This document shows, in pieces, positions 7,766 through 15,850 of a stretch of DNA of 33,864 nt. Position 1 is the first letter of the stretch. Every line of letters begins with the position of its first letter. The DNA is taken from NCBI GenBank assembly GCA_012838945.1, contig DUOG01000064.1, positions 1-33,864 of the forward strand, read 5' to 3'. The notes under the pieces were generated by a model, which made no database searches, was not told the DNA's origin, and saw only the letters and a program-made list of their open reading frames with translations. Made by a program: the position numbers and the translations under genes. This DNA is from Acholeplasmataceae bacterium (GTDB lineage Bacteria; Bacillota_I; Bacilli_A; ML615J-28; CAG-313).

Positions 7766-8828
7766 TGCTTTTGATTTCCTCCAAGACTTTTTCATCTACT
7801 ATATCAATGATTTTTTTAACCATCTCTAAAACTGCATCATAATCATCGACATGAATCATGCCAGCAGTTGAATGGATGTAGCGAGCCGGCATTCCAATGG
7901 TAGCACTTAAGATACCTTCATTTGATAGTTGAGCTGCGGCAGCATCAGTTCCTCCCATTGATAAAAATGGTTGGTATGGAATATTATATTTTTCAGCTGT
8001 TTCGATAAAGAATTCCTTCATACCTTGATGCATGATGCAACGAGGATCATAAAAACGTAATAAGAAACCTTTACCTAAGGCACCAAAACTACGTGGATGA
8101 TTTTTATCAAGGAAATCACCTACCGGTGAACAGTCAATCGCAATAAACAAATCCGGATTAATCATTTGAGAAATGGTGATCGCACCTCTTAATCCAACCT
8201 CTTCTTGAACGGTTGCTCCAGCATATACCGTATTAGGATGCTCTTTGCTCATTGCATATTTCAATGCTTCTAATGCAACACCACAGCCAAGACGGTTATC
8301 CCAAGCTTTTGAAACAACCTTTTTACCATCGGCAGTCACATAAAAATCATTTACTGGTACTACTTGTTGACCAATTTTAACTCCTAATTCTTTAGCATGG
8401 TCTGCAGAATCTGCCCCAATATCAAGGAGCATATCATCAACTTCAAGTTTTTGGGAGCCTTGATCTAAGCCCCGACCAATGTGTGGAGGAGTACTACCAA
8501 AGACACCTCTTATTTCTTTACCTTCATCGGTAATGATTCTCATATTTTGTGATAAGAAGACATTCCCATCAATTCCACCAATTGATTTTACTTGAATAAA
8601 ACCATTGTCTTTAATACCGGTGACGATAGCACCAACTTCATCCATGTGTCCAGCAATCATAATCACTGGCCCTTTTCCTTTAGAAACACCCATAATACTT
8701 CCCAAATTGTCTTGAACAATTTCATCAGTTAGTTTGGAGATTTCTTCTCTCATAAATTCTCGGACATACTTTTCTCGGCCCGAAACACCTGGTAAATTTG
8801 TTAATTTTTCAAAAAATTTTAAATCCAT
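7758..8828 (-). CDS. M42 family aminopeptidase (YsdC/FrvX-like)
   Basis: 356 residues. The dinuclear metal site is visible: AGHMDEVG (H61, D63), KAWDNRLGC (bridging D177), the catalytic pair VQEEVG (E209, E210), and IDCSPVGD, with a C-terminal IHSTAGMIH histidine. M42 enzymes are large tetrahedral cytosolic complexes that trim N-terminal residues from peptides; individual members prefer Glu/Asp, Leu or Lys, which sequence alone does not settle. Its ATG overlaps the trmB stop in TAATG. Confidence 0.9.
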   Translation of the reverse strand: MDLKFFEKLTNLPGVSGREKYVREFMREEISKLTDEIVQDNLGSIMGVSKGKGPVIMIAGHMDEVGAIVTGIKDNGFIQVKSIGGIDGNVFLSQNMRIITDEGKEIRGVFGSTPPHIGRGLDQGSQKLEVDDMLLDIGADSADHAKELGVKIGQQVVPVNDFYVTADGKKVVSKAWDNRLGCGVALEALKYAMSKEHPNTVYAGATVQEEVGLRGAITISQMINPDLFIAIDCSPVGDFLDKNHPRSFGALGKGFLLRFYDPRCIMHQGMKEFFIETAEKYNIPYQPFLSMGGTDAAAAQLSNEGILSATIGMPARYIHSTAGMIHVDDYDAVLEMVKKIIDIVDEKVLEEIKSNV

Positions 8829-9472
8829 TATTTCACTCCCTTGAGTTTAACTTTTACAAAATAGATTGGTTGATTACGTGCTAAGAATCGATCTTCATAT
8901 TCAGTAGTTACAATTTCTTCGTCTCGGGCATGTAAGTCAACACTAAAGTCTTCAAAGATAAAATCATTATTATTAAAACTAATTATTGAGTATTCAAATA
9001 AATGTACATTGTCAGTTTTAAATTCAATCTCTCCACCTTCTACTAATACCTTACGATATATTTCTAAAAAGGCTGGATAAGTTAGTCTTCTTTTAGCATG
9101 ACGCGATTTAGGCCACGGGTCGCTAAAGTTAAGATATATTTTTTCTATTTCGTGTTCTTCAAAGATGTCTAATAAACGAGCACCATCGAAGTGAATCAAT
9201 CTTAAATTAGGAAGTTTTACTTCCAAGGCCTTTTTCATCGCTTGTAAGATGACACTATCAAAACGTTCAATCCCAATGAAGTTGATATCAGGATTAAGGG
9301 TAGCCATCTTGATGATAAATTGCCCTTTCCCCATTCCTAGTTCTAAATGAATTGGATTGTTATTATTAAATAGTTTTTTCCACTTGCCACGATGAATTTC
9401 TGGATTAGGTATGACTAGTTCTGGATGTTTAGCAAGTTGTAATCCAGCATTTTTAATTTTTCTAAGTCTCAT
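8828..9472 (-). CDS. trmB: tRNA (guanine-N7-)-methyltransferase TrmB
   Basis: 214 residues, typical for the Gram-positive enzyme. The S-adenosylmethionine motif I is LELGMGKGQFI, followed by NFIGIERFDSV. The family hallmark SDPWPKSRHAKRRL carries the catalytic Asp and the tRNA-contacting basic residues. It forms m7G46 in the variable loop of tRNAs. It lies 1 bp after pepV and overlaps the M42 peptidase gene, so it is transcribed with the peptidases. Confidence 0.96.
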   Translation of the reverse strand: MRLRKIKNAGLQLAKHPELVIPNPEIHRGKWKKLFNNNNPIHLELGMGKGQFIIKMATLNPDINFIGIERFDSVILQAMKKALEVKLPNLRLIHFDGARLLDIFEEHEIEKIYLNFSDPWPKSRHAKRRLTYPAFLEIYRKVLVEGGEIEFKTDNVHLFEYSIISFNNNDFIFEDFSVDLHARDEEIVTTEYEDRFLARNQPIYFVKVKLKGVK

Positions 9473-9473
9473 A

Positions 9474-10832
9474 CTATCTCCCTAATACCATCATTGCTTC
9501 AGCATAGATTGCGGTGGCGAGTATCAAGTCTTCAATAAAGACATGTTCGTCAGCTTGATGTACGACATCAGGTCGACCTGGCATTAACATACCAAAAGCA
9601 ACACCTTTCTTTAAAGCACGTGCATAAGTCCCCCCACCAATGGTCATTGGTTTATTCTTTTCATCGCCAGTATATTTTACATAAATATCGTATAAACTTG
9701 TAACTAGCGGATCACTTGGATCAACAAAATGTGGTTTGCTGTCACTCACAACTTCGTATGATAAATTGTATGGAGCTAGTGCATTCGCTAATTTTTGATA
9801 AAATTCATCCTTGTTAAAGTTGATTGGACAGCGTAAATTTAAGCCTGTGAGCCCTTGAGAATTAAAATATTTAATAATTCCTACGTTACACGTTAAATCG
9901 CCCATTTGATCATCGGTAAAGTTTGCTCCTATTTTGTTTAATCTTGTATCATCATGTAAAACCTTATCGATAAAATTAATTAAAGGATTAGTAATATACT
10001 TACTAGCAAAGTTTGCAAGGTAGGTTCCAGCGTTAATTCCTTTCTCTGGTTCCATAGCATGAGCGCCTTTTCCTTTTAAGTAATACTGATAGCGACCATT
10101 CTCATTAAATGTATGGCCTTCCATTTTGTTTTCTTTTAAGTATGCTTCAAACTGCGGTCTAAAGTCACTGATTGTTTCCATCATAGCACTACTTGGAACC
10201 ACATTATAACGTTCTCCGGCTTGAAAGTTAACTATTTCATTACAAGTAAAATCTCCGGTTACATTAATAGTTAAGATTCCCTTTTCACCATAGATTAGTG
10301 GAAAGTTAGCGTCAGGAGCAAATCCCACTACTGGCATCGGTTGATGCTTAAAGTAGTATTCTATGCCACCCCAACCACTTTCTTCATCAGTTCCGAGGAT
10401 TATTCTAATTCTTTTATTTAATTTAATATTTAAATCCTTTAATAGTTTCAATCCATAATAGGCGGCCATAGTTGGTCCCTTATCATCAAGGGCACCTCTA
10501 GCATATATCTTACCATCTTTTATTTCAGCTCCATATGGTGGGAAAGTCCAGTTGTCTCCCTCTGGAACTACGTCCAAGTGACATAAGACACCAACAATTT
10601 CTTCACCTTCACCATATTCAATATGACCAGCGTAACCGTCGATGTTTTCTGTCTTAAAACCATCTCGTTTAGCTATATCTAACATTTTTTCTAGGGCATC
10701 ATTTATTCCTTTTCCAAAAGGCATATTATTAGAAGAAGTTGTTTCATCTTTAACACTTTTTATTTTTAGTATCTCTTGTGTATCTTGCACAAGTTCTGCT
10801 TCATGTGCTTTTACCCATTTTAAAAAGTCCAT
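9474..10832 (-). CDS. pepV: Dipeptidase PepV, M20 family
   Basis: 452 residues, with the two-metal M20 site in order: GVLCHLDVVPEG (H85, D87), ALDDKGP (bridging D117) and GTDEESGW (catalytic E150, E151), plus the lid-domain segment before the C-terminal histidine near VVHQADEHV. PepV hydrolyses a wide range of dipeptides in the cytosol, the last step of peptide catabolism. It is the first gene of a leftward run pepV-trmB-M42 with spacings of 1 bp or less. The ATG at 10832 follows GGAGG. Confidence 0.93.
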   Translation of the reverse strand: MDFLKWVKAHEAELVQDTQEILKIKSVKDETTSSNNMPFGKGINDALEKMLDIAKRDGFKTENIDGYAGHIEYGEGEEIVGVLCHLDVVPEGDNWTFPPYGAEIKDGKIYARGALDDKGPTMAAYYGLKLLKDLNIKLNKRIRIILGTDEESGWGGIEYYFKHQPMPVVGFAPDANFPLIYGEKGILTINVTGDFTCNEIVNFQAGERYNVVPSSAMMETISDFRPQFEAYLKENKMEGHTFNENGRYQYYLKGKGAHAMEPEKGINAGTYLANFASKYITNPLINFIDKVLHDDTRLNKIGANFTDDQMGDLTCNVGIIKYFNSQGLTGLNLRCPINFNKDEFYQKLANALAPYNLSYEVVSDSKPHFVDPSDPLVTSLYDIYVKYTGDEKNKPMTIGGGTYARALKKGVAFGMLMPGRPDVVHQADEHVFIEDLILATAIYAEAMMVLGR

Positions 10833-10920: not shown

Positions 10921-11127
10921 ATGGATATTAATATTCGTAAAGCAGTAATGGCCAATCTTAACGGCGCAACCAATGATGATGTACGCAAAACCATTGTTGA
11001 TGCCATCAATATGGGAGAAGAAAAAGTGCTTCCTGGCTTAGGCGTTTTGTTTGAAGTCTTCTGGCAAAAATGCAACGAAGATGAAAGAGCCGTTGTTCTT
11101 CAAAAGATAGCTGAAGCAATTAAATAG
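10921..11127 (+). CDS. sspI: Small acid-soluble spore protein I
   Basis: 68 residues, the family's usual size. It matches Bacillus SspI along its length: the MDxNxRxAVxAN start, TIVDAIxxGEEKxLPGLGVLFE in the middle (GEEKVLPGLGVLFEVFW here) and a helical C-terminus. SspI is a minor forespore protein, distinct from the DNA-saturating alpha/beta type. AAAGGAGG gives a strong ribosome binding site, the upstream promoter looks sigma-G-like, and a strong terminator follows directly, so it is monocistronic. This is the clearest single sign that the organism makes endospores. Confidence 0.95.
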   Translation: MDINIRKAVMANLNGATNDDVRKTIVDAINMGEEKVLPGLGVLFEVFWQKCNEDERAVVLQKIAEAIK

Positions 11128-11170: not shown

Positions 11171-11524
11171 CTACTTTTCATAATTTTCAAATGCTTTAGC
11201 AATTGCTTCTGATGAACACTTGATGGTATTGCCGACAATTAAAGTGCCAACATTTAAGCCCTTTAACTTATCCATATCAACAGCCTCTAGTGATTTAACT
11301 TCAATACTAACCCGAGTTAACTCTTTACTGACATTGACAATATTATCATTGCCACCAAAAATATCAATAAGTTCATTAGCTTCAGATCCTTTTCTCGGCT
11401 GCGCTTTGGCACGTTTTAGTATAATCTTTATTAACACAATCATCGATAATACTAAAATCGGAACAATTGAAAATAACAAAATTACATAAACAACTATATC
11501 CGAAGAGTTAGTTAAAAACAACAT
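11171..11524 (-). CDS. Membrane-tethered, EIIB-like domain protein lacking the phosphocysteine
   Basis: 117 residues from the ATG at 11524 (GAGGTGA 5 nt upstream; the frame extends to a GTG at 11533). Residues 9-37 are one transmembrane helix, followed by a basic linker (KRAKAQPRK) predicting a cytoplasmic C-terminus. Residues 51-110 align with the glucose-type PTS EIIB fold: IFGGNDNI matches the FGGxxNI motif, LTR matches the active-site xTR, and LIVGNTI matches the VVxGxxV strand. The phosphorylated Cys of the DACITRLR motif aligns with E68, and the second Arg is lost, so it cannot accept phosphate in the normal way. No EIIC or EIIA gene lies nearby. It may be a sensor, a scaffold or a relic. 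The fold call is by eye. Confidence 0.6.
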   Translation of the reverse strand: MLFLTNSSDIVVYVILLFSIVPILVLSMIVLIKIILKRAKAQPRKGSEANELIDIFGGNDNIVNVSKELTRVSIEVKSLEAVDMDKLKGLNVGTLIVGNTIKCSSEAIAKAFENYEK

Positions 11525-11620
11525 AAATTTCACCTCATTCTCTTAACATTATAAACAATTTATCTAATTTATTCAAGTATTGTTTACTATAATATTCACA
11601 TATATTGTAATGGTGATAAG

Positions 11621-12418
11621 ATGACTCCCTTACAAAAGTTTGTGAAATACTTACTCCTTGGATTAATCCAAGGAATTACTGAACCTTTACCGATATCTTC
11701 AAGTGGTCATGTTCTAATCTTTGATCTCCTTTTAGGTATTAATATCATTGACATTAATTTTGAGATTATTATTAATTTTGCTTCCTTCTTGGCCATTCTT
11801 TTTTTCTTTAGAAAAGACATCTTTGAACTAATATCCAATATCTTTAAGGGGAAAAAAGACACAGAGTTAAATATCAATTATGTGATAAAGCTAATCATTG
11901 CCTCGCTACCTGCCATCATAGTTGGTTTCTTCCTTAAAGATACTATTGATAGATATCTCATGAATATCCTAACTCTTGGTATTAGTTTTATTATTACTGG
12001 TATCTTGTTGCTCTTTGCAAGTAAAGTGAAAAGCAAATATCATGATTCAACCATCACCAATAAAGACTCCTTATTTATTGGAATTATGCAAAGCATCGCT
12101 TTAATTCCTGGAATTAGCCGTTCTGGTGCTACCTTATCAGGGGGACTCTTCTTGAAAAAAGATATAAAATCGGTTTTGAGATTTTCTTTTTTCATGTATA
12201 TGATTGTAAGCCTTGGTTCAATGGTCTTAATGATCAAAGATATTGATGCAAGTACCATTTTTATTAGTGGCTATCTTGGAGCCTTTATCGTTTCTTTAGT
12301 TTCCACTTTTATTTCAATTAAGTGGTTTTACAATTTAATTTTAACCAAAAGCCTTAAAGGTTTTTCCTACTATTGCTTTATTCTTGGAATTGTCATCTTT
12401 ATATTTAAATTATTTTGA
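11621..12418 (+). CDS. uppP: Undecaprenyl-diphosphate phosphatase
   Basis: 265 residues of integral membrane protein with about eight hydrophobic segments. Both catalytic signatures of the BacA/UppP family are present: GLIQGITEPLPISSSGH near the N-terminus, with the conserved Glu and Ser residues, and PGISRSGATLSGG in the middle with the conserved Arg. It recycles the lipid carrier for peptidoglycan and teichoic acid synthesis, and overexpression is known to give bacitracin tolerance. Position 3 of the signature is E-P-L-P where most members have E-F-L-P. A GGTGAT ribosome binding site precedes the ATG. A TATAAT at 11588-11593 may be the -10, but no -35 is convincing. Confidence 0.95.
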   Translation: MTPLQKFVKYLLLGLIQGITEPLPISSSGHVLIFDLLLGINIIDINFEIIINFASFLAILFFFRKDIFELISNIFKGKKDTELNINYVIKLIIASLPAIIVGFFLKDTIDRYLMNILTLGISFIITGILLLFASKVKSKYHDSTITNKDSLFIGIMQSIALIPGISRSGATLSGGLFLKKDIKSVLRFSFFMYMIVSLGSMVLMIKDIDASTIFISGYLGAFIVSLVSTFISIKWFYNLILTKSLKGFSYYCFILGIVIFIFKLF

Positions 12419-12472: not shown

Positions 12473-12494
12473 TACTGAAAGTGTGGTGAATTTT

Positions 12495-12905
12495 ATGGGA
12501 TGCGATACTCGAAATAATGATCAAGTAAGCAACCGTAACCTTCGGAATAATAACATATGTGAAACCTTGAGACGTATTGAACAAGTTCAAAAAGAAGCAC
12601 TTTTAGCATCGGCATGCGGAAGGGATTTAACATCATGTGACTCCAGTCTAATAGCTGCCGTCTTTAACACGAAACCAATATCAATATATACAAGTGAAGG
12701 TATCTTTGAGGCAACGGTCGGACCAAATGGACCTTTTACTAGACTCTTCCGCGTCGAAGACGTTAAAGGCTGTGATGTCGTTGTCTTAAGACTTTTGACT
12801 TTAGAAAATGGCGTCTATACTTGCACCCCATATACTTGTATATTTAAAATAGATTGTATTTGTTGTTTACAATGTTTTGACCCAACCAATTGTCCAATAT
12901 GCTAA
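12495..12905 (+). CDS. Cysteine-rich spore coat protein, CotY/CotZ family
   Basis: 136 residues from the ATG at 12495 (GGTGA just upstream; an in-frame GTG at 12483 lacks one). It has 13 cysteines, clustered at the end as CICCLQCFDPTNCPIC. The central FRVEDVKGCDVVVLRLL parallels FRVERVHGSCATLSLL of Bacillus CotZ, and the IDCICCLQCFDP stretch parallels its DLDCFCAINCLNP, so family membership is well supported. These proteins self-assemble through disulfides into the outermost spore crust. Only one copy is present here, against the cotY-cotZ pair of Bacillus, so I give no symbol. The gene has its own promoter and terminator. Confidence 0.85.
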   Translation: MGCDTRNNDQVSNRNLRNNNICETLRRIEQVQKEALLASACGRDLTSCDSSLIAAVFNTKPISIYTSEGIFEATVGPNGPFTRLFRVEDVKGCDVVVLRLLTLENGVYTCTPYTCIFKIDCICCLQCFDPTNCPIC

Positions 12906-12949: not shown

Positions 12950-14335
12950 TTAAGCTTTCTTAAATTGGGCACTAATGGAGTCAATCGCAATAAACAATAA
13001 GTTTAAAAGAATACCAAACACTGCCGCTGTAGCAATAGCTGGAGCTTCAAAACCAAAGAGGGGAATCAAACCATCTTCAAATTGGAATGAACCACCGAGG
13101 CCAACTATTAAAATTGTCGCTATAATTGCTAGTGACTTAGCACTAAAAAGGTCCACCTTTTTATCTATCATAATAGCAATACCTTGTGCCGCAATTACCC
13201 CAAATAGATAAATTGAAACACCACCGATAACCGCATTAGGAATTGAGTAAACGGCTGCTGATAGAGGTGTAAAGAGGGAAATTACCATTGTGATAATGGC
13301 TGCTGTGATTAGGACTTTAACTGAAAAGTTTTTAGTGATTGACATTGTACTAATGTTTTCCCCATAGTTGGTTCCAGCTGGTCCCCCAATCATCCCGCTA
13401 ATGATATCACCCATACCATCACCAATTAAGTTGGCACCTAGTTTTTCCGCAATCGGATACTTCTTAGGGCTCTTTTTTAATTCCGCCAATTTATTAACAT
13501 ATATATCTAATTGAAAAATATGAGCGGTTGATTCTGGAATGGTCGCAATAGCGATTGGCATGATTGCTGCAAGAGCGGCCCATGAAGGTTTTGGAAGAGT
13601 AAAGTGTGGAAGTTCTACTATTTTTCTTCCTTCACCTAGTAGGGCAAAGTTGACAAACTTAATATCGGTAGCCAGACCAATAATAAGGGCTGTTACATAT
13701 CCTAGTCCCAAACCAAGGAGTATTGGAATTTGTCCCCATGTTCCTTTTTTCAAATAGACTGAAAATAAGATTGTTGATATTAAAGTAACTAGCGCTATAA
13801 TCCAATTGTAAGTACTAGCTGCATCAGCGTTGTCAAGAGTAACCCCAACAATACCTGTAACATCATGAACATTGTTTAAAGCTGTTCCTGCTAAAGATAA
13901 ACCAATAACGATAGCGATAGAACCAGTAACTGCAGGAGGTAATACTTTTTCAACTGCATCCATACTGAATCGTTTCACTATTAACCCCGCAATAATTGAA
14001 ACTAAACCACTCATAACGATACCAAATTGGGCTTCACTGATTAATGCATCCGGAGCAATCTGGCCATATTTAGCACCAGTGATTGATACGATTGCTGCGA
14101 TATAAGAAAAACTACTTCCATAATATAAAGGTATTTCTCTTTTAGTAATAAAGATGAAACATAGGGTTGCAAGTCCACTAGCAAAGATTGTAGTAGAAAC
14201 ATGGAAACCGGTTAGTAAAGCAACTAGAACGGTTGCGGGGAACATTACAATAATTTGTTGAATCGCAAAAATAAATAATCTTCCGTAACTTGGGCTTTCA
14301 TCAGGTAAATAGCCAATTGTTTTTTCTTCTAACAT
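12950..14335 (-). CDS. NCS2 family nucleobase permease (uracil permease-like)
   Basis: 461 residues with about 14 hydrophobic segments, the NCS2/UraA architecture. The substrate-site motif GGPAGTNYGENISTMSITKN matches the GGxPxTTYGExxGxxxxT region of UraA-type carriers, and the earlier PESTAHIFQLD matches the conserved Glu/His helix that contacts the base. It is a proton-coupled importer of uracil or possibly xanthine; the motif favours uracil. A strong AAGGAGG precedes the ATG. It lies downstream of the azgA-type permease but behind that gene's terminator, so it is expressed by read-through or by its own promoter, which I could not identify in the 38-bp gap. Confidence 0.85.
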   Translation of the reverse strand: MLEEKTIGYLPDESPSYGRLFIFAIQQIIVMFPATVLVALLTGFHVSTTIFASGLATLCFIFITKREIPLYYGSSFSYIAAIVSITGAKYGQIAPDALISEAQFGIVMSGLVSIIAGLIVKRFSMDAVEKVLPPAVTGSIAIVIGLSLAGTALNNVHDVTGIVGVTLDNADAASTYNWIIALVTLISTILFSVYLKKGTWGQIPILLGLGLGYVTALIIGLATDIKFVNFALLGEGRKIVELPHFTLPKPSWAALAAIMPIAIATIPESTAHIFQLDIYVNKLAELKKSPKKYPIAEKLGANLIGDGMGDIISGMIGGPAGTNYGENISTMSITKNFSVKVLITAAIITMVISLFTPLSAAVYSIPNAVIGGVSIYLFGVIAAQGIAIMIDKKVDLFSAKSLAIIATILIVGLGGSFQFEDGLIPLFGFEAPAIATAAVFGILLNLLFIAIDSISAQFKKA

Positions 14336-14410: not shown

Positions 14411-15850
14411 TTAAATTATTCCTACTTCTTTAAAAGCCATTAGGACGAAATATAGTAGGAATAAAGAGGTAGATACCCATAAAATAGGGTGAACCTCTTT
14501 GGTCTTCTTTTGGCATACCTTAACAATAATGTAGAAGATAAAACCAAAAGCAATACCAATAGATATATTGTAAGCAAGTGTCATAATAATAGCACTAAAG
14601 AATGCTGGTAATGCTTCTGCAAAATCATTCCATTCAATTTCTTTGAAACTTCCTGCCATCATAACACCAACAATCATCAATGCTGGAGCTGTAGCGGCTC
14701 CAGGAACCACCGCTACGATTGGTGATAGTAAAATACATAATAGGAAGAAGATTGCGGTGAAGACACTAGTTAAACCCGTGCGGCCGCCAACTTCAATTCC
14801 GGCAGCACTTTCAACATATGTTGTGGTGTTACTTGTTCCAAGGAGGGCTCCCATAGAGGTAGCAATGGAATCAGCAAATAAGGCTTTTTCCATTTTAGTT
14901 TTAAAGCCCTTAGAGTGTTCGATAGCGTCAACGTCTTCATCAGTGAAAATACCACTTCTACGACCTGTACCAATGAATGTACCGATAGTATCAAAAGTAT
15001 CTGATAAGCTAAATGCAAAGATAGCAAGCAATGCCATTGGTAAACGAGAAAGATCACTAAATAAACTACCCATTCCATCAAAGGCAGCAAAGAATGTTTC
15101 ACCAATATCATTAAATGGAGCAACAAATGATTCCCAAGTAAAAGCAACATCTTTTACTGGGCTTACTCCCATTGGAATACCGATAATTGTAGCTGCAACA
15201 ATACCAATTAAAATAGCACCTTTAACTTTAAATAGTAAGAGGACAATTGTAATAACTAAACCAATAAGTGCGACTAGTGGCACCGCAGAGGCAAATTTAG
15301 TTATCTCAGGAATAATTGAGGAATCAATGATAGCCCCACCGCCATCAATCGCAAACCAAGAACCTGGGTCGGCCACAAAGGTTAACATTCCGGCATTTTT
15401 AAGACCGATATAGAAAATAAAAATACCAATACCTCCGCCAATTGCATGTTGTAAACTCTTTGGAATAGACTTAATAATATGCTTTCTGACTTTGGTAACG
15501 GTAATTATAATGTTAATGATTCCGCAAATAAAAACGATGGCTAATGCTTCTTGCCAAGAAAACTTTAAAGCAAAACATACAGTGTATGTGAAAAAAGCAT
15601 TGAGCCCCATCCCTGGCGCAACTGCATAAGGCACATTCGCAAACAAACCCATAAAAAGGGTACCAATGACTGTAGCGAGAATAGTCGCTAAAAAAACCGC
15701 ATTAACAGGCATGCCGGTTAATCCTAAGATTTGAGGATTTACAAAGATGATGTAAACCATCGCAAAGAAAGTTGTTAGTCCAGCCACTAATTCACGAGTA
15801 ACAGTCGTTTTGTGTTCTTCTAACTTGAAAAAGCTTTTGATTTTAGACAT
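14411..15850 (-). CDS. AzgA family guanine/hypoxanthine permease (PbuG/PbuO-like)
   Basis: 479 residues and 12 to 14 membrane helices. It opens with the AzgA signature (TTFFAMVYIIFVNPQIL, then FLATILATVIGTLFMGL and APGMGLNAFFTY), continues with FSLSDTFDTIGTFIGTGRRSG and ends with TSNTTTYVESAAGIEVGGRTGL, the conserved substrate and proton sites. The family imports guanine, hypoxanthine or adenine with protons. The guanine-class riboswitch directly upstream argues for guanine/hypoxanthine. It has its own sigma-A promoter at 16058-16086 and its own terminator. The ATG at 15850 has AAGGTAAGAGAAA upstream. Confidence 0.93.
   Translation of the reverse strand: MSKIKSFFKLEEHKTTVTRELVAGLTTFFAMVYIIFVNPQILGLTGMPVNAVFLATILATVIGTLFMGLFANVPYAVAPGMGLNAFFTYTVCFALKFSWQEALAIVFICGIINIIITVTKVRKHIIKSIPKSLQHAIGGGIGIFIFYIGLKNAGMLTFVADPGSWFAIDGGGAIIDSSIIPEITKFASAVPLVALIGLVITIVLLLFKVKGAILIGIVAATIIGIPMGVSPVKDVAFTWESFVAPFNDIGETFFAAFDGMGSLFSDLSRLPMALLAIFAFSLSDTFDTIGTFIGTGRRSGIFTDEDVDAIEHSKGFKTKMEKALFADSIATSMGALLGTSNTTTYVESAAGIEVGGRTGLTSVFTAIFFLLCILLSPIVAVVPGAATAPALMIVGVMMAGSFKEIEWNDFAEALPAFFSAIIMTLAYNISIGIAFGFIFYIIVKVCQKKTKEVHPILWVSTSLFLLYFVLMAFKEVGII

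Follow-up and report, generated by a model that had tools for sequence, protein, structure and literature searches.

A membrane-anchored EIIB-like protein family, most likely catalytically dead, that persists in genomes without enzyme I

Background

The EIIB-like protein described here is encoded in a 33,864-nucleotide contig of an Acholeplasmataceae bacterium (hereafter the window, that is, the whole stretch of DNA that was analyzed). With the EIIB domain of Escherichia coli PtsG (EIICB-Glc), this protein shares the fold, the GG-x-x-NI motif and the first active-site arginine, but it lacks the equivalents of Cys421 and of the second arginine; furthermore, where PtsG has the EIIC transporter, it possesses one helix, and its genome encodes neither enzyme I nor EIIA. 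In E. coli, according to PMC3901232, dephospho-EIICB-Glc pulls the repressor Mlc to the membrane. The protein in the window resembles this system in that an EIIB domain is held at the membrane, and the best fold match comes from the PDB entry 3bp8, so that docking can be proposed here by analogy; however, the docking of Mlc is switched by phosphorylation of EIICB-Glc, whereas the window protein lacks the phosphorylated cysteine.

The other described relative is that of the mycoplasmas, MG_129 in Mycoplasma genitalium and MPN_268 in M. pneumoniae. A 2026 paper (PMC13047044) refers to MG_129 as "an orphan PTS EIIB protein" and identifies Rny as MG_130, so this description of the mycoplasma member is already published. 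The protein encoded at the MG_129 position has the same arrangement as the window protein, an N-terminal hydrophobic segment followed by an EIIB domain, with 117 aa and no active-site cysteine. It is, however, divergent, with glutamine at the arginine that is conserved in the window family; its gene is translated with UGA as Trp and is surrounded by neighbors unlike those of the window locus. The mycoplasma member aside, no description of the spread of the family, of the loss of the cysteine, of the persistence in PTS-less genomes or of the synteny with ptsH(I) and tkt was found in open-licence PMC text, and the accessible parts of PMC12494982 and PMC6609329 do not mention the EIIB-like protein.

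An EIIB fold on a membrane anchor

The EIIB-like ORF (117 aa plus stop) occupies positions 11171..11524, where the initial annotation had placed it without giving the strand, which is minus (stop codon 11171-11173, ATG 11522-11524). An alternative GTG start at 11533 would add 3 aa, but the ATG is the better start because GAGGTG, a likely ribosome-binding motif recognized from the sequence only (11531..11536, minus strand), is located 6 nt 5' of it. The ORF matches Pfam PTS_EIIB (PF00367) with an E-value of 8.8e-5 and 22.3 bits, under the 27-bit cut-off, and NCBIfam EIIB_glc (TIGR00826) with an E-value of 3.3e-5 and 24.2 bits, under the cut-off of 45.75; the top match in a PDB sequence search is E. 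coli EIIB-Glc (E-value 7e-4). The AlphaFold2 model, for which 46 relatives were aligned, has a mean pLDDT of 79.6 and a pTM of 0.47 and consists of helix 7-40 followed by H47-55, E62-68, E71-76, H84-89, E93-97, E100-104 and H106-111. A Foldseek search started with this model retrieves EIIB-Glc chains as the best PDB matches, namely 3bp8_C, an EIIB chain in complex with Mlc (E-value 2e-5), 1o2f_B and 3bp3_A. With VIA-align, the model superimposes on 3bp3_A over 75 residues with a Z score of 10.7 at 2.5 A; Z exceeds 8 in six rows, every one of them an EIIB, and drops to 5.0 in the next. The domain fits both crystal and NMR structures of EIIB-Glc. The glucose-type EIIB pattern that had been recognized in the initial annotation, with modelling and Foldseek comparison named as the check, thus holds at the level of profiles, PDB matches and predicted structure.

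The N-terminal helix (residues 7-40, 11405..11506 of the minus strand in the AlphaFold model) forms the membrane anchor and is followed by a K/R-rich linker. By the positive-inside rule, this linker implies that the EIIB-fold domain (residues 47-117, 11174..11386 of the minus strand, delineated from the sequence matches and the model) should be cytosolic. The domain contains the motifs FGGNDNI, ELTRVSIEV and VGNTIKC, and no EIIC is present within the ORF. The one-helix membrane tether envisaged previously is borne out by the model; the views that the protein, with one helix and no EIIC, is not a transporter and that it represents a reused fold are supported as well. Members from one GTDB family (f8; e.g., L069:6572-7228 and L126:3480-4157) have a much longer hydrophobic N-terminal part, with a total length of about 216-226 aa.

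In the alignment to EIIB-Glc, the active cysteine corresponds to E68 (codon 11321..11323, minus strand), the first arginine to R71 (11312..11314, minus strand) and the second arginine to S73, so that both the glutamate at the phosphocysteine position and the missing second arginine were read correctly at the outset. Column counts were taken over 127 members, read from 47 plus 80 loci. N61 (codon 11342..11344, minus strand) is invariant (127/127), and the first-arginine column is conserved (R111 K15 T1; entropy rank 3), whereas arginine occupies the second column in 3 of the 127 members, and a single member, L147 (CLSRIRI), has the active-site cysteine; among the mycoplasma-type members, the cysteine is found in 0/11. 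As a control, 19/19 bona fide EIIBs encoded in genomes of this class have C, R and R at the three positions under the same profile alignment. Judging by these residues, the EIIB-like domain is most likely catalytically dead and carries no phosphate; the conserved G, G, N, R and G of the domain may be mainly structural.

The locus agrees with the previously noted adjacency to spore and envelope genes: the divergent neighbor encodes UppP, undecaprenyl-diphosphatase (11621..12418, plus strand), and the convergent one SspI, a small acid-soluble spore protein (10921..11127, plus strand), beyond which the PepV dipeptidase (9474-10832, minus strand) and TrmB (8828-9472, minus strand) are encoded in the same orientation as the EIIB-like ORF. 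Several further loci likewise have a gene of the UppP cluster upstream of the EIIB-like gene. Beside UppP, there is a gene for a 140-aa Cys-rich protein (12483-12905, plus strand) that has no Pfam or NCBIfam match and is spore-coat-like by look only; genes of its cluster are found close to the EIIB-like gene in 24/47 loci. Two adjacent genes of the nucleobase permease family are also present in the window (12950-14335 and 14411-15850, minus strand).

Spread of the family

A search of 60 genomes identifies EIIB-like relatives in 47, the window's own genome counted. Within the window's GTDB family (f1), all 15 genomes searched, i.e., the window's genome and 14 others, carry one copy each, and the gene is usually single-copy elsewhere as well. 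Given the relatives in 14/14 other f1 genomes and in 47/60 overall, the ORF is not a chance reading frame. The profile A1, built from 46 of the 47 rows (L037, which is cut by a contig end, was left out), matches 264 of the 296 genomes drawn from the class, in 151 of 165 genera, and these figures are an upper bound because A1 also matches bona fide EIIBs in PTS-bearing genomes. The genome draw for the phylum consists of genomes of this one class. The matches L100-L105 (Oceanobacillus, three from Vagococcus, Sulfurovum and Alkalibacterium) were rejected as family members; they are read as ordinary transporters because they are located in ORFs of 312-541 aa and because the EIIB stretches that were read, those of L100, L104 and L105, contain the cysteine.

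A tree was built from 71 columns, with the three active-site columns omitted, and from 85 rows, each GTDB family being represented by about 4 at most; of the 19 bona fide EIIBs, one was excluded as too short. One branch, with SH-aLRT support of 95, separates 67 family members from 18 bona fide EIIBs, although many forks of this 71-column tree are open. L147, the single Cys-bearing member, groups with the family, close to f8 and f12. What emerges is a phylum-wide family of EIIBs, most likely catalytically dead, that almost always lack the cysteine, and a "PTS EIIB" label in this phylum should not be equated with sugar transport. The NCBIfam model NF011497 describes a fusion of triosephosphate isomerase and an EIIB domain; its EIIB half is matched by L147, L149, L126 and L069, another link of EIIB domains to glycolysis.

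PTS components in the host genomes

In the window's genome, whose assembly is 96.6% complete, there is no enzyme I, no glucose-type EIIA and no other EIIB, the window ORF being the sole EIIB match. Because these components are absent, the suggestion that the protein reads the state of the PTS fails for this organism. A census of 104 profile-positive genomes from six families (f1, f2, f7, f9, f11 and f18) shows that this situation is common: enzyme I is absent in 101 of them, and enzyme I and HPr are both absent in 85. In the genomes without enzyme I, the EIIB-like protein is accordingly not part of a PEP-driven phosphorelay. Among the drawn genomes of the window's family, HPr is absent in all save the window's own.

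The one HPr-like protein of the window's genome is encoded on another contig (L077:6998-7243 on contig C7, minus strand) and has lost the phospho-histidine, with aspartate in place of His15, but retains the Ser46 region. Its gene is located between pgk and tpiA (gene names read by eye), in a genome where HPr kinase is present and enzyme I is absent. The same pgk-HPr-tpiA order is found in L078, L080 and L084, with aspartate or asparagine at His15, and, with one extra gene after pgk and the histidine kept, in L083. The L077 protein looks like an independent Crh-like regulator.

A proposed docking role and the link to HPr and transketolase

The explanation that we tentatively favor is that the EIIB-like protein provides a constitutive docking surface for a soluble partner. 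The single helix would anchor the catalytically dead EIIB domain at the membrane, and this domain would hold a soluble cytosolic partner there without switching, on the model of dephospho-EIICB-Glc holding Mlc in E. coli; since the phosphorylated cysteine is absent, the partner would be docked all the time. An origin beside ptsH(I) seems likely for the gene, which seems to have outlived the PTS in several lineages; this would imply that its present job needs no PTS. The leading published candidate for the partner is the SRP receptor, FtsY, and the main rival explanation would be HPr-linked regulation.

Comparison of the gene neighborhoods, a further check named in the initial annotation, does reveal conserved neighbors. 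HPr is encoded by the next downstream co-directional gene in 35 of the 127 loci (f8, 8/8; f10, 7/7; f12, 2/3; f13, 4/4; f15, 1/1; f21, 3/8; f22, 10/10), the two genes overlapping by as much as 23 bp or lying up to 125 bp apart, with 25 of the 35 pairs overlapping or separated by no more than 16 bp. Two f12 loci show the arrangement EIIB-like, HPr, enzyme I. The f21 loci that contain HPr read EIIB-like, HPr, PepV, TrmB; many f2 loci have EIIB-like, transketolase, PepV, TrmB; and the window has EIIB-like, SspI (on the opposite strand), PepV, TrmB. Given the common PepV-TrmB order, the window locus is equivalent to the f21 loci with EIIB-like and HPr genes, and SspI occupies the slot that is held by HPr or transketolase in the related families. 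Transketolase is encoded directly downstream in 27/47 loci (26/127 with stricter clustering). Under the simplest reading, the EIIB-like gene would have begun beside ptsH(I); tkt would afterwards have taken the place of HPr in f2, and f1 would have lost HPr.

These neighborhoods bring up an alternative, HPr/Crh-type carbon regulation, whereby the dead EIIB would be the membrane partner of HPr phosphorylated on Ser46 by HPr kinase and would tune central carbon metabolism rather than transport. This possibility, somewhat unlikely in our assessment, would be compatible with the tight linkage to HPr, the EIIB-like-HPr-enzyme I order in f12, the frequent downstream transketolase and the methylglyoxal synthase-like genes near the EIIB-like gene in f8. 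Examination of the HPr sequences adds to this case. In 31 of the 35 loci, HPr contains His15 and the genome encodes enzyme I; in the four others, all from f22 (L114, L118, L121 and L122), glutamine or asparagine is found at position 15 and the genomes lack enzyme I, so that His15 follows the presence of enzyme I with no exceptions. The losses in f22 probably represent one or two events because three of these four loci belong to one genus code. Those HPr copies whose available sequence extends to Ser46 retain the region around it. In these four f22 loci, with HPr devoid of His15 and enzyme I missing, the EIIB-like/HPr pair hence outlasts phosphotransfer. In addition, an association of PtsH with FtsY is predicted in PMC13047044. 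Nevertheless, HPr is absent in 85 of the 101 enzyme I-less profile-positive genomes of the six families, and in the window's genome, the HPr-like gene is on another contig; judging by the genomic data, support for HPr/Crh carbon control would be confined to a subset of the family.

Under another, improbable scenario, the EIIB-like protein would hold transketolase, a metabolic enzyme with which it is co-transcribed, at the membrane or regulate it. The tight operon in f2 and f4, in which the two genes range from an overlap of 23 to a gap of 18 bp, is what such a role would predict, but this arrangement is limited to two sampled families, and tkt is not adjacent to the EIIB-like gene in the window's family. 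Moreover, the identity of the downstream gene varies between families (HPr, tkt or SspI), which looks like turnover at the locus.

FtsY as a candidate partner

One drawn genome, a single contig of 580,076 bp, which matches the genome size of M. genitalium G37, contains a family member, L235:7977-8330 (profile E-value 9.2e-16), in the gene order trpS, ArsC/Spx-like, NAD kinase, family member and a 484-aa ORF. The latter has a hydrophobic N-terminus and is read as Rny. Because this Rny-like ORF adjoins the L235 member, and Rny is MG_130 in the published work, the L235 member is, on genome size and gene order, very probably MG_129. In the tree, this protein falls inside the EIIB-like family group (one branch, SH-aLRT 95, 71 columns), and the trpS, ArsC-like and NAD kinase neighbors are also found, in part or as a whole, in f7, f9 and f18 loci.

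In PMC13047044, a complex of MG_129 with FtsY is predicted with a size-corrected ipTM of 0.496, PtsH is predicted to bind FtsY at a separate interface (0.317), and a single MPN_268-FtsY crosslink is reported, with a span of 33.4 A when placed on the model of the complex; the authors suggest that MG_129 may moonlight, e.g., in co-translational secretion. The ipTM for MG_129 and FtsY is moderate, and the crosslink span is a poor fit. That FtsY is the partner across the whole EIIB-like family appears distinctly unlikely. The broader proposal is equally doubtful, namely, that a PTS domain has been turned, throughout the phylum, into a membrane receptor for FtsY or a regulator of it, in which the dead EIIB would pin FtsY (together with HPr or a His-less, Crh-like HPr where one of these is present) to the membrane and which would have been kept after the loss of the PTS; if true, this would link protein insertion to carbon supply. 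In any case, MG_129 is a gene of unknown role in a minimal genome, and the family context turns this into a testable question of which partner is bound.

Co-occurrence with FtsY was rejected as support for this partner: FtsY exceeds the cut-off in 72 of the 77 family-positive genomes vs 16 of the 20 family-negative ones, which does not discriminate, and several genomes without FtsY are incomplete assemblies. The N-termini of 25 FtsY proteins (14 from family-positive and 11 from family-negative genomes) are alike, with no membrane segment in either group. Within four genes of the EIIB-like gene, no SRP gene is present in 126 of the 127 loci, and one locus has an FtsY-like gene. In one f11 genome (G051, 98% complete, 0.8 Mb), FtsY, Ffh-like matches above 18 bits and the EIIB-like match are all absent; possibly, this is an SRP-less bacterium or an assembly gap.

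The phosphocysteine column and the weakest alternatives

The initial annotation also proposed that the glutamate could be a fixed phospho-mimic, with a protein that reads or mimics the PTS state, and named the alignment of homologs as the check. Glutamate is indeed the commonest residue at this position (43/127) and occurs in 20 of the 26 f2 members. The column, however, is free: it contains 12 residue types among the 127 relatives (E43 N24 K15 S12 D11 Q8 V7 T2 I2 A1 C1 R1) and ranks 47 of 69 domain columns by entropy; within f1, its composition is N5 K4 Q3 V2 E1, so that the window's glutamate is the sole one among the 15 members of its own family, in a genome that encodes neither enzyme I nor EIIA. 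Because the column varies so freely in homologs, an outcome that the initial annotation had itself listed as refuting, the phospho-mimic reading fails, leaving it very improbable, and the rarity of cysteine is to be attributed to the loss of phosphotransfer and not to a need for glutamate. Just as remote is the idea of an active phosphocarrier that would use another residue, such as C103: cysteine is found there in 27 of 46 close relatives but only in 28/127 members overall, so that most of the family lacks it, and the genome has no enzyme I. Thus, C103 was rejected as an alternative nucleophile for lack of conservation.

A decaying relic without function, which the lost active site and the Pfam and NCBIfam scores under the family cut-offs might bring to mind, is scarcely credible and was rejected, given that the frame is open, the gene is single-copy and present in 15/15 genomes of the window's family, and the dN/dS values of 0.07-0.33 in 15 pairs of family members indicate that the EIIB-like protein evolves under purifying selection.
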